Shown here: one piece after another, positions 32,765-58,511 of the stretch | How positions within the stretch are numbered: position 1 is the first letter of the stretch | Layout of the letters: each line of letters begins with the position of its first letter | From: Terriglobia bacterium | GTDB lineage: Bacteria; Acidobacteriota; Terriglobia; Acidiferrales; UBA7541 | Assembly (NCBI GenBank): GCA_020073485.1 | Contig: JAIQFB010000007.1 | Location: 62,001-126,000 of the forward strand | Length of the DNA: 64,000 nt | Reading direction: 5' to 3' | The notes under the pieces: model-generated | Databases searched by the model: none | Told to the model about the DNA's origin: nothing | The model's input: the letters and a program-made list of their open reading frames with translations, nothing else | Program-made: the position numbers and the translations under genes

Positions 32765-32842
32765 CCGCCATTCCGAGCGCAGCGAGGAATTTCTCTTGGG
32801 CTTCGATCGAAGAGGGATTCCTCGCTTCGCTCGGAACGACGG
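32765..32842. repeat. Palindromic repeat, family B
   Basis: Arms 32765-32790 and 32817-32842 are near-perfect inverted copies built on CATTCCGAGCGAAGCGAGGA. Other copies: 46157-46238 and 58432-58511. Confidence 0.85.
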
Positions 32843-46156: not shown

Positions 46157-46238
46157 CGTCATTCCGAACGAAGTGAGGAATCCCTCCTTCTGTAGACTTT
46201 AAACCGAGGAGGGATTCCTCACTTCGTTCGGAATGACG
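46157..46238. repeat. Palindromic repeat, family B, perfect arms
   Basis: Arms 46157-46187 and 46208-46238 are perfect 31-base inverted copies (core CATTCCGAACGAAGTGAGGA) with a 20-base loop. It lies between convergent gltD and a DinB-like gene. Confidence 0.9.
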
Positions 46239-53433: not shown

Positions 53434-53961
53434 TTACGCGGCCTTGGTCTCCGAAATCGCGGGGGCCTTGGCTTCGGCTTTCGGCAACATGATGCTCAGC
53501 ACGCCTTCCTTGAGCGTCGCGGAGACTTTTCCAGCATCGACTTCGCAGGGCAGATCGAGGGTCCGCATGATTTCCTCGGAATGCTCTTCGGTCGACTGCG
53601 ATTCGCCTTCCTTGGTTTCCTTCTTGGATTCCCGCTTGCCGGTGATGATCACGCGGCGCGGCTCGACGTTCACTTCGAGTTCGTTGGCGTTGAAACCGGG
53701 GACTTCGGCGCGCACCACCAGTTCGCCGGCAGTTTCTTCCAGGTTGAAGGACAGGGGTTGCAGGAATTCCTTCTCGGCCTGTAGCCAATGGCGCACGTCG
53801 TTTCCGTCGGCGCGGCCTTCTTGTTCAAATAATTCATAGGCGCGGCGCGCGATGGCGTCGTAGATGCGGTGGATTCGTTCGGTAACGCTTTCCATTTTTC
53901 CTGTTTTCACGGGCGGGCGGGAGGGGGCGGATTGCGCTGCGGCTGCGGATTTCTCCACCAT
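53434..53961 (-). CDS. Hsp20 small heat-shock protein with DUF2934-like N-terminus
   Basis: A protein of 175 aa. Residues about 24-65 (IHRIYDAIARRAYELFEQEG, then HWLQAEKEF) resemble DUF2934, a short helical segment common in Acidobacteriota and plant-associated bacteria. The rest is an alpha-crystallin domain: GELVVRAEVPGFNANELEV, VIITGKRE, LPCEVDAGKVSATLKEGVLSI (in part) and a final LPKAE. It keeps unfolding proteins soluble. A terminator lies 30 bases downstream. Confidence 0.88.
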   Translation of the reverse strand: MVEKSAAAAQSAPSRPPVKTGKMESVTERIHRIYDAIARRAYELFEQEGRADGNDVRHWLQAEKEFLQPLSFNLEETAGELVVRAEVPGFNANELEVNVEPRRVIITGKRESKKETKEGESQSTEEHSEEIMRTLDLPCEVDAGKVSATLKEGVLSIMLPKAEAKAPAISETKAA

Positions 53962-55198: not shown

Positions 55199-55322
55199 CC
55201 GGGAAGGCGCGCAAGAGGTTCGTGCCCCGGCCCTGCGACCAAAACGGGCGCGTTCGCATCCAATTAAGCTATTCAGGCGCGAGCACGCCTGGGGTATGCT
55301 TTTTCCCCGACCAGGGCGACCT

Positions 55323-56993
55323 ATGGCTAAGCCGATATTGCTGAGTGTGGACGACGACGCGGACGTCCTGCGCGCCATCGAGCGCGATCTGCGTTCGCAT
55401 TACGGCGCGGAATACCGCGTCATCGGCAGCGACTCTCCCGAGGGCGCCCTCGACCTGCTCAAGCAGCTCAAGGTCCGCAGCGACACGGTGGCCTTGCTCC
55501 TGGCCGACCAGCGCATGCCCCGCATGGACGGCGTAAAATTCCTGCAGGAAGCGAAAGAAATTTATCCCGACGCCAAGCGCGCGTTGCTAACCGCCTACGC
55601 CGACACTAACGCCGCAATCAGCGCCATCAATCACGCCAACATTAATTATTTTTTCATGAAGCCGTGGGATCCGCCCGCCGATCACCTCTATCCTCAGCTG
55701 GACGATTTGCTCGACGATTGGCAGGCTTCCTACCATCCCGCGTTTCAAGGAATCCGCGTGCTCGGAACGCGCTGGTCGCCGCGCTCGTACGAGCTGCGCG
55801 ATTTTCTGGCGCGCAGCCACGTCCCTTACCAGTGGATTGACGTGGAGCTTTCGGCCGGCGATCCGGAAACCAAGCGGCTGCTCGATGCGCTCGGGCCGGA
55901 GGCGTCCAAGCTTCCGGTCGTGCTGTTTCCGGACGGGGCCAAACTGCTGGAGGGCGCGCCAACGGAAGTCGCGAAAAAAGTGGGACTCCGGACCGTGGCG
56001 CAAACCAGTTTTTACGATCTGGCCATCGTGGGCGGCGGGCCTGCGGGGCTGGCCGCAGCAGTGTACGGCGCCTCGGAAGGCTTGCACACCGTGATGATCG
56101 AGCGCGAAGCGCCCGGCGGCCAGGCGGGCATGAGTTCGCGCATCGAAAATTATTTGGGATTTCCAACCGGGCTCAGCGGCGGCGACCTGGCGCGGCGAGC
56201 GGTGGTGCAGGCGCAGCGCTTCGGCGTGGAAATTCTGGCGCCCCAGGAAGCCGTGGGGATTCGCACCGAGGGGTCCTACCGCATCGTCAAGATGGCGGAT
56301 GGCAATGAGATTTCCTGCCACGCCCTGATGATCGCCACAGGCGTGCAATGGCGGCGCCTGGAAGCTCCGGGAATCGACCGCCTGCAGGGCGCCGGCGTTT
56401 ATTACGGCGGCGGGGCGACCGAAGCGATCGCTTGCAAGGGCGAAACGATCTACGTGATTGGCGGAGCGAATTCGGCGGGGCAGGCGGCCATGAATTTCGC
56501 GAAATACGCGGATCGCGTGGTCATTCTTGTGCGCGGGACATCTTTGTCCAGCACCATGTCCCAATACCTGATCGACCAGATCAAGGAGATGCCTAACATT
56601 TCTCTATGGGCGCACGCCAGCGTTTCCGAAGTGCATGGTGATACGCACCTTGAGGAAATTTCCGTGCTCTGCTCGGACACAAACAAAATCGAACGTGTCC
56701 CGGCGAGCGCCATGTTTATTTTCATCGGCGCGCTGCCTCGCACCGATTGGCTAGGCGATGTTGTCGAGCGGGATGGGCGCGGCTTCGTCTTGACCGGACC
56801 GGACCTGATCCGGGACGGCAACCGCCCCAAGGGTTGGACTCTCGAACGCGATCCGTTCCTGCTCGAAACCAACGTTCCCGGCCTGTTTGCCGTGGGCGAT
56901 GTGCGGCACGGCTCGGTGAAACGCGTGGCTTCCAGCGTGGGCGAAGGATCGGTGGCCGTGCAATTCATTCATCAATATCTGAGCAAGGTTTAA
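55323..56993 (+). CDS. Response regulator receiver fused to Grx-like and TrxR-like FAD domains
   Basis: A protein of 556 aa, starting at 55323 (MAKPILLSVDDDADVL). Residues 1-125 are a receiver domain with all key residues: Asp10-12, Asp62 in LADQRMPRMDG, Thr90, Lys113. Residues about 142-222 resemble a glutaredoxin fold (GIRVLGTRWSPRSYELRDFL, LPVVLFPDGA) but have no Cys. Residues 230-556 are a thioredoxin-reductase-type flavoprotein: VGGGPAGLAAAVYG, GGQAGMSSRIENYLG, VIGGANSAGQAAM, GLFAVGDVRHGSVKR. At the place of the redox CxxC stands GVYYGGGATEA, with no Cys. It may be an FAD oxidase or reductase gated by phosphorylation. The partner kinase starts four bases later. Confidence 0.85.
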   Translation: MAKPILLSVDDDADVLRAIERDLRSHYGAEYRVIGSDSPEGALDLLKQLKVRSDTVALLLADQRMPRMDGVKFLQEAKEIYPDAKRALLTAYADTNAAISAINHANINYFFMKPWDPPADHLYPQLDDLLDDWQASYHPAFQGIRVLGTRWSPRSYELRDFLARSHVPYQWIDVELSAGDPETKRLLDALGPEASKLPVVLFPDGAKLLEGAPTEVAKKVGLRTVAQTSFYDLAIVGGGPAGLAAAVYGASEGLHTVMIEREAPGGQAGMSSRIENYLGFPTGLSGGDLARRAVVQAQRFGVEILAPQEAVGIRTEGSYRIVKMADGNEISCHALMIATGVQWRRLEAPGIDRLQGAGVYYGGGATEAIACKGETIYVIGGANSAGQAAMNFAKYADRVVILVRGTSLSSTMSQYLIDQIKEMPNISLWAHASVSEVHGDTHLEEISVLCSDTNKIERVPASAMFIFIGALPRTDWLGDVVERDGRGFVLTGPDLIRDGNRPKGWTLERDPFLLETNVPGLFAVGDVRHGSVKRVASSVGEGSVAVQFIHQYLSKV

Positions 56994-56997
56994 TTGA

Positions 56998-58383
56998 ATG
57001 GTGGAACCTTCCGAACTGCTTGGCGTCCCGGTCTTCGCCGATCTGCCCAAGGACCAGATCGCCTGGTTCATCGGCCAGTCTGAAGAATCGCATCTGAAAG
57101 CCGGCGATATTTTGACCCACCAGGGCGATCCGGCGGAGTGGATGCTGGTGATTCTCGAAGGCGAGCTTCAGGGCCGAGGCGAATTGGGCGGAGAAACGAT
57201 CGTCATTTCGTTGCCGGCAGGCCAGGTCTCCGGTCGGCTGCCCTTTTCCAGGATGAAGCAGATTGCCGTCGGAATGCGCGCGATCTCCGACAGTCACATT
57301 TTGAGATTTCCTTCCTCGAAGTTTCAGCAACTTGTGCAAACCATGCCCGAACTGACCACTCGCCTGGTGGCGTTGATGACCGACCGCGTCCGCGAGTTCA
57401 CGCGCCTCGAACAGCAGCGCGACCGGCTGGCCGCGCTCGGAAAACTTTCCGCGGGCCTGGCGCACGAACTCAACAATCCCGCGTCGGCCGCCACGCGCGC
57501 CACCAGCCAGTTGCGCGACATCCTGAAACGCATCCGCGACGCCAGCCACGATCTGGGAAGACGTGACCTTAGCACCGCGCAAAAACTCGAAATCGAAAAG
57601 CTGGAAACTTCGCTCACGAATCTGAACGACCCTCCGCCCGACCCGCTCGCCAGGAGCGCCCTGGAAGATCAACTCGATTCCTTGCTGCGCAGCCACGGGC
57701 AAAACGATTTGTGGCAACTCGCGGCGGGCCTGGCGCGCAGGAACGTCCAGCCGGAAGTCTTGGAAACGCTGTTCTCGAATCTCGATGCGGATACGGCGCG
57801 CGCGGCGCTGGTTCGCATCGCCGCTTCGGTGGAAGTGGCCAGCCTGCTGAACGAGATCGAGAGCAGCACTTCGCGCATTTCCGACCTGGTCCGTGCCATC
57901 AAGGAATATACGTCCATGGACCAGTCGCCGGTACAAAACGTGGACATCGTGAAGGGACTGGAATCTACGCTGACGATCCTGAACCACAAGCTGAAGCACG
58001 GAGTGGCCGTGGTGCGCGATTATCCCAGCGTGCCGCTTCTGGTGAATTCCTTTGGCAGCGAACTCAACCAGATCTGGACCAACCTCATCGACAACGCCAT
58101 CGATGCCATGCACGGAAAAGGCGAGATTCGCGTTCGCGCGCACTGCGAGGACACTTGTGCCGTGGTGGAAATCGGCGATAACGGCCCGGGAATCCCGCCC
58201 GAGATCAAGCCGCACATCTTCGAGCCTTTTTTTACCACCAAGGGCGTTGGCGAGGGAACCGGACTGGGCCTCGACACCGTGCAGCGCCTAGTGAAAAAAC
58301 ATTCCGGCTCGATTCAAGTCACCTCAAAGCCCGGAGACACGCGTTTCCAGGTGTGGCTGCCGCTTGGCGGAACTCCCGCGTAG
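56998..58383 (+). CDS. Histidine kinase with N-terminal cyclic-nucleotide-binding domain
   Basis: A protein of 461 aa. Residues about 5-125 are a cNMP-type beta-roll (FADLPKDQIAWFIG, AGDILTHQGDPAEWMLVILEG). The dimerisation helix holds His156 in GLAHELNNP. The ATPase domain has NLIDNAIDAMHG, GDNGPGIPP, FEPFFTTKG and GEGTGLGLDTV. No membrane segment, so cytoplasmic. It starts four bases after the flavoprotein gene and probably phosphorylates its receiver. The real ligand may be a nucleotide or another small signal. Confidence 0.9.
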   Translation: MVEPSELLGVPVFADLPKDQIAWFIGQSEESHLKAGDILTHQGDPAEWMLVILEGELQGRGELGGETIVISLPAGQVSGRLPFSRMKQIAVGMRAISDSHILRFPSSKFQQLVQTMPELTTRLVALMTDRVREFTRLEQQRDRLAALGKLSAGLAHELNNPASAATRATSQLRDILKRIRDASHDLGRRDLSTAQKLEIEKLETSLTNLNDPPPDPLARSALEDQLDSLLRSHGQNDLWQLAAGLARRNVQPEVLETLFSNLDADTARAALVRIAASVEVASLLNEIESSTSRISDLVRAIKEYTSMDQSPVQNVDIVKGLESTLTILNHKLKHGVAVVRDYPSVPLLVNSFGSELNQIWTNLIDNAIDAMHGKGEIRVRAHCEDTCAVVEIGDNGPGIPPEIKPHIFEPFFTTKGVGEGTGLGLDTVQRLVKKHSGSIQVTSKPGDTRFQVWLPLGGTPA

Positions 58384-58431: not shown

Positions 58432-58511
58432 ACCGTCATTCCGAGCGAAGCGAGGAATCCCTCTTTCCCATCGATCCAAGAGGGATTCCTCGCTTCGCTC
58501 GGAATGACGGT
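58432..58511. repeat. Palindromic repeat, family B, perfect 34-base arms
   Basis: Arms 58432-58465 and 58478-58511 are perfect inverted copies with a 12-base loop containing ATCGAT. It follows the histidine kinase stop by about 50 bases. Confidence 0.92.

Follow-up and report, generated by a model that had tools for sequence, protein, structure and literature searches.

Several described systems resemble parts of the locus reported here. AhpF joins an N-terminal thioredoxin-fold domain to a thioredoxin reductase (TrxR) module and retains its CxxC relays. Response regulators in which a receiver (REC) domain is combined with a TrxR-like domain have also been catalogued. This architecture is called 'Mycobacterium-like' in a census of archaea (PMC5847659) and forms the output class 'TrxB' in a census of cyanobacteria (PMC9953108). 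The entries in these two censuses list the architecture, and those entries do not describe loss of cysteines, pairing with a kinase, or a neighborhood of zinc-finger and ergothioneine (egt) genes. In a literature search that omits most subscription journals, we found no functional study of a REC-TrxR pair.

Here, we analyzed a window of 64,000 nucleotides of DNA from a Terriglobia bacterium, a soil member of the Acidobacteriota (GCA_020073485.1, contig JAIQFB010000007.1, positions 62,001 to 126,000); coordinates below are positions in this window. The window contains a flavoprotein that belongs with the census REC-TrxR proteins, with which it shares its domain combination. By contrast with AhpF, it has lost both CxxC relays and has gained a receiver. 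Searches of PDB sequences, NCBIfam, Pfam, and the literature covered brought up no characterized family for this flavoprotein. The REC-TrxR architecture is already catalogued; what is new is the context of zinc-finger and ergothioneine genes.

A receiver-linked flavoprotein that lacks both CxxC motifs

The flavoprotein gene (55323..56993, forward strand) encodes 556 amino acids. There is an alternative, longer in-frame ATG at 55296, but 55323 is the better start because the relatives begin at the methionine of MAKP. The protein starts with a receiver domain (55323..55727; Response_reg, E 1.3e-12) with the phospho-acceptor D62 encoded at 55506-55508. This is followed by a glutaredoxin-like domain (55749..55985) and by TrxR-like FAD and NAD(P)H domains (56007..56990; Pyr_redox_2, E 4e-34). 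The middle segment alone matched no Pfam domain; in the AlphaFold model it has alternating beta and alpha elements (pLDDT ~81-88), and it aligns with the glutaredoxin domains of two relatives, L051 and L050, that contain WCPDC and WCGDC. Pfam, the alignments, and the AlphaFold model thus bear out the sequence-only reading of this gene as a receiver, a Cys-less glutaredoxin-like domain, and a TrxR-like FAD domain without CxxC. RefSeq names these flavoproteins 'FAD-dependent oxidoreductase'. The genome has one copy of the gene and a separate TrxR with the motif CATC. The flavoprotein scored 205.4 bits against the thioredoxin reductase model TIGR01292, below the curated cut-off of 343.45, and 163 bits against the AhpF model, where the cut-off is 503.

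At the TrxR active site, the sequence GVYYGGGATEA (56394..56426) occupies the position of CATC in the genome's own TrxR and in the relatives that retain CxxC, and the other relatives aligned have no CxxC there. At the glutaredoxin active-site position the protein has RWSPRS where the outgroup has WCPDC, and neither CxxC nor CxxS, one of which is expected of a glutaredoxin, is present at this site. The RQ motif of TrxR has also lost its Q. By contrast with these losses, the FAD motif GGGPAG and the NAD(P)H-binding motif GGANSAGQ (56460..56483) are conserved in the family, the latter followed by R404 instead of HRRxxxR. A family-specific insert (56808..56867) lies 5' of the LETxxPG motif. Residues that are invariant in 62 REC-class relatives include D10, D62, and K113 of the receiver, Y361 and E367 in the segment that replaces CxxC, N383-S384-A385-G386-Q387 and R404, and W505, R509, and E515 in the insert.

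The flavoprotein still holds three cysteines, C371, C332, and C450, which are found in 47, 33, and 8 of the 62 REC-class relatives, respectively. Because a hidden Cys pair at the flavin would speak for disulfide chemistry, all alignment columns of these relatives were scanned for one, and no conserved pair was found. Together with the absence of both CxxC motifs throughout one clade (see below), this supports the earlier proposal that the flavoprotein has probably lost disulfide chemistry.

The AlphaFold model of the flavoprotein (mean pLDDT 89.1) matched Lactococcus lactis TrxR in the flavin-reducing (FR) conformation (5mh4) in Foldseek with a TM score of 0.94 and rmsd of 2.1, compared to a TM score of 0.63 for TrxR in the flavin-oxidizing conformation (5mjk). 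The model contains neither FAD nor NAD(P)H, and its FR-like state is weakly suggestive of an enzyme that no longer swings a disulfide to the flavin.

A soluble partner kinase with a degenerate sensor cassette

The second gene (56998..58383, forward strand) starts four bases past the flavoprotein stop codon and encodes a histidine kinase of 461 amino acids. Pfam recognized cNMP_binding (PF00027, E 2.4e-11) and HATPase_c (58054..58365, E 7.8e-28) and matched HisKA by half; no membrane domain was recognized by domain search. RefSeq names such kinases 'ATP-binding protein'. The phospho-acceptor His156 (57463..57465) lies in the H-box HELNNP. Among 48 partner kinases H156, N366, D394, G396, G398, G420, G422, and G424 are present in all, N362 in 46, and the cyclic-nucleotide-binding (CNB) domain in 47. 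In the AlphaFold model (mean pLDDT 88.6), the first DHp helix (residues 117-187) and the second (264-309) are separated by a helical insert of ~75 amino acids (57559..57786) at residues ~188-263, which consists of four helices (193-207, 216-232, 239-247, and 252-261). This insert possibly has a role in partner specificity.

The sequence-only reading had called the kinase soluble with a cyclic-nucleotide-binding sensor. The kinase boxes and the CNB fold (57025..57357) agree with this, and the nucleotide ligand does not. In the phosphate-binding cassette (57232-57282), which is degenerate, Glu72 and Arg82 of CAP correspond to R80 and I89. Glu is found at the first of these columns in 21 of the 48 partner kinases, and Arg is absent from the residues listed for these 48 kinases at the second. 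Because these canonical residues are missing, it is unlikely that the domain binds a cyclic nucleotide in the conventional manner, and we reject cyclic-nucleotide sensing as it was stated. Flavoproteins of the CNB class, described below, retain a G-E/D-L/V stretch.

Just downstream of the kinase gene, at 58437-58506, there is a palindromic element in which CATTCCGAGCGAAGCGAGGAATC and its reverse complement are 24-30 bases apart. Two further copies are at 32769-32838 and 46160-46235; none of these three would be expected in the window by chance.

Kinase pairing follows the receiver

We scanned GTDB representative genomes with the REC-class alignment and obtained at least 80 loci, selected by the flavoprotein and never by the kinase. 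The REC class occurs in Acidobacteriota, Cyanobacteriota, Chloroflexota, Actinomycetota, Bacteroidota, Gemmatimonadota, Verrucomicrobiota, Thermodesulfobacteriota, Pseudomonadota, and others. For pairing, we used the scan matches listed and same-phylum loci with adequate flanks. Among the matches listed, 82 of 91 REC-bearing loci from at least nine phyla have a kinase of the same type within 3 kb, and in 79 it is within 400 bp. By contrast, none of 17 relatives without a receiver, two of them CxxC outgroup proteins, has such a kinase within 3 kb. The raw count for this group was 2 of 19; the two positives (L055 and L084) are REC-class genes with a truncation or frameshift and were removed. The kinase is also missing near L042 and L052, where the receiver is degenerate and has lost D62 and K113. 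Mirror-tree correlations between the REC-TrxR protein and the kinase were high (r 0.58-0.70) but do not tell partnership apart from shared descent of the species, and we leave them out of the argument. The gene pair recurs in other genomes, and the putative link from this kinase to this output, proposed earlier for the window alone, is stronger than the sequence-only reading could know.

A single Cys-less clade that carries REC or CNB domains

To place the flavoprotein, a tree was built from 53 Grx-TrxR regions with L050, L051, and the genome's own TrxR as outgroup. All of the Cys-less proteins group together in a single clade (support 100/99) on a long stem. The two fusions with CxxC in each domain, L050 and L051, branch outside this clade alongside the genome's TrxR. 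Within it there is a branch, the CNB class, where a CNB domain is fused straight to the flavoprotein without a kinase. These proteins are nested inside the REC-class background, and the direct fusion looks like a derived state, a placement that depends on the long outgroup branch. Because the CNB domain occurs either on a kinase that acts via REC or fused to the flavoprotein itself, the flavoprotein appears to be the output. This nested exchange of REC and CNB is the best sequence argument for that role, and it is in line with the earlier view of an output that is enzyme-like rather than DNA-binding.

Zinc-finger and ergothioneine genes near the flavoprotein

The alpha/beta hydrolase, Hsp20, and DUF4010 genes that flank the pair in the window are not conserved beside the relatives. 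The Hsp20 gene (53434-53961, opposite strand) lies ~1.4 kb upstream of the flavoprotein gene and its product has an N-terminal DUF2934 region.

In eukaryotes, the zf-UBP fold binds ubiquitin tails. Among the matches listed, a small UBP-type zinc-finger gene (PF02148) is within 6 kb of 21 REC-class loci from five phyla and of several CNB-class loci. In Dyadobacter it is the next gene 3' of the flavoprotein gene; in Streptomyces fungicidicus it comes immediately 3' of the kinase gene, whose end it overlaps. At L056 (726-2792) and L076 (3634-5772) the pair adjoins a Kef-like K+/H+ antiporter with a C-terminal zf-UBP fusion; a Kef-like neighbor occurs at three loci only. Rhodococcus has the gene run clpB-trxA-zfUBP-CNB flavoprotein. 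Plasmids of Rhodococcus and Streptomyces carry stress operons of the form cbpM-clpB-trxA-(zf-UBP)-CNB flavoprotein (L170:1-5242 and L171:1-5305). The only zf-UBP gene of the window's genome is on another contig (L154:7692-7955, G000:C17), where, as read from the sequence, it is just downstream of a putative 3-methyladenine DNA glycosylase gene.

Co-occurrence was examined in 396 Acidobacteriota and 218 Bacteroidota genomes at an E-value limit of 1e-60, which lets in a few proteins that do not belong to the Cys-less family (G015 and G368 at least). By Fisher tests that ignore phylogeny, zf-UBP was found in 56 of 70 Acidobacteriota genomes with the flavoprotein versus 29 of 326 without it, and in 22 of 33 versus 2 of 185 in Bacteroidota. 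The corresponding values for EgtD, again with phylogeny ignored, were 65 of 70 versus 93 of 326 and 30 of 33 versus 38 of 185. With the window's own class set aside, the Acidobacteriota gave odds ratios of 18 for zf-UBP and 14.5 for EgtD, likewise with phylogeny ignored.

Genes for EgtB and EgtD, with families checked, flank the module in L068, in a Bryobacterales locus (L084, 86% identical protein), in Dyadobacter (L124 and L129), and in Pararcticibacter (L125). They are also in the cluster of several CNB-class Acidobacteriota, and by coordinates egtD is beside zf-UBP and the flavoprotein in G019, G128, G169, and G201.

Proposed function and alternatives

The domains, the motif loss, the pairing, the single clade, and the neighbors are observed. 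From these, we favor, with some confidence, the idea that the pair is a two-component system with an enzyme as output, a phosphorylation-gated NAD(P)H flavoenzyme that transfers electrons directly to its acceptor. In this model, the soluble kinase would sense a cue, probably cytoplasmic, via its CNB-fold domain, autophosphorylate on His156, and then phosphorylate Asp62 of the flavoprotein receiver. Phosphorylation of Asp62 would alter the activity of the TrxR-derived FAD/NAD(P)H module, and the reduced FAD would give up its electrons, bypassing disulfides, to an external acceptor located at the flavin. Y361 and E367, with the W505/R509 insert, may lie near or replace the lost disulfide at the flavin. 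The pair may belong to a conserved module for stress, of which the small zinc-finger protein would often be part.

The competent residues of both receiver (62 of 62) and kinase (46-48 of 48), the presence of the kinase in either gene order near loci that have a receiver, and its absence where the receiver is degenerate or, as in the CNB class, where none is needed are consistent with two-component control. Retention of the FAD and NAD(P)H motifs though both CxxC are gone also fits the favored explanation, and the FR-like model fits it weakly. The adjoining or fused zf-UBP in many loci points to a stress module. A broader proposal is more tentative: a disulfide-free, TrxR-derived flavoenzyme, gated by phosphorylation or by a fused CNB domain, may form with zf-UBP a widespread bacterial redox-stress module that deals with protein damage or with chemistry related to ergothioneine. 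Against the favored explanation are seven well-flanked loci with an intact receiver, mostly cyanobacterial, where no such kinase is within 3 kb, and the location of the genome's zf-UBP gene on a separate contig. The flavoprotein could also be a catalytically dead sensor of NAD(P)H or FAD occupancy.

A specific form of the two-component enzyme explanation, and compatible with it, is that the module serves ergothioneine or another low-molecular-weight thiol of this kind, the flavoenzyme reducing an oxidized ergothioneine species with no disulfide of its own. The egtB-egtD clusters and the enrichment of EgtD in flavoprotein-containing genomes fit this idea, but the majority of loci have no egt neighbor, and both phylogeny and an aerobic lifestyle confound the co-occurrence; we consider the idea doubtful. 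Ergothioneine as an obligatory substrate is further weakened by Chloroflexota, where genomes with clear members (G627, G640, G645, and G659) mostly lack EgtD.

It also seems unlikely that the flavoprotein is a sensor, with the redox state of FAD or NAD(P)H occupancy feeding back on the kinase via the receiver and the fold kept for signaling. Loss of both CxxC motifs and of the Q of RQ would fit such a protein, and cofactor binding alone could explain the invariant cofactor motifs. However, flavoproteins of the CNB class lack a kinase that could receive such a signal, a receiver usually serves as the input to the protein that contains it, and the invariant polar residues Y361, E367, R509, and E515 look like an active site.

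We consider it very unlikely that the adjacent kinase is not cognate and that adjacency reflects shared stress regulation. This would explain the cyanobacterial loci without a nearby kinase and the loci that carry several such kinases, but not a pairing found in at least nine phyla among the matches listed, kinase first or flavoprotein first and in some loci with overlapping gene ends, nor the fact that loci of the CNB class and those with a degenerate receiver lack the kinase. Disulfide reduction via the single C371 and a partner such as thioredoxin, for which the frequency of C371 in the REC class and in most CNB-class proteins and the trxA gene adjoining a CNB-class member on the Rhodococcus and Streptomyces plasmids could be cited, is the least probable of all because C371 lies ~9 residues past the lost CxxC, is Tyr, Ala, or Phe in 15 of 62 relatives, and has no second conserved Cys.

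If the two-component enzyme explanation is correct, the system would switch a redox enzyme post-translationally, by direct phosphorylation, a mode of control quite different from the transcription factors through which such systems usually act. Members of the family occur in at least nine phyla and often bear the annotation thioredoxin reductase, although they would be incapable of its chemistry. The ties with ergothioneine synthesis, seen in two phyla, and with a zf-UBP protein of bacteria offer concrete partners for two poorly understood topics in bacteria. The REC and CNB versions are a natural contrast through which the control mechanism is accessible by domain exchange.

Comparison with known systems

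KefF is a flavoprotein ancillary subunit coupled to the redox-gated K+ efflux antiporter KefC. The Kef-like antiporters with C-terminal zf-UBP that adjoin L056 and L076 recall this system, but the folds of KefF and our flavoprotein are unrelated and this neighbor is confined to the three loci noted above. The RefSeq 'cyclic nucleotide-binding domain-containing thioredoxin-disulfide reductase' has the Cys-less Grx-TrxR core in common with the window protein and differs in that CNB is fused directly, with no kinase. The nearest outgroup, the Grx-TrxR fusions L050 and L051, shares the domain order, but both redox-active CxxC are kept and no REC or CNB was recognized in them. TrxB itself (TIGR01292) has the FAD and NAD(P)H fold in common with the window protein, as seen in the match to the FR state of L. 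lactis TrxR; unlike TrxB, the window protein is without CxxC, has one Arg in place of HRRxxxR, and carries in addition REC and Grx-like domains and a C-terminal insert.
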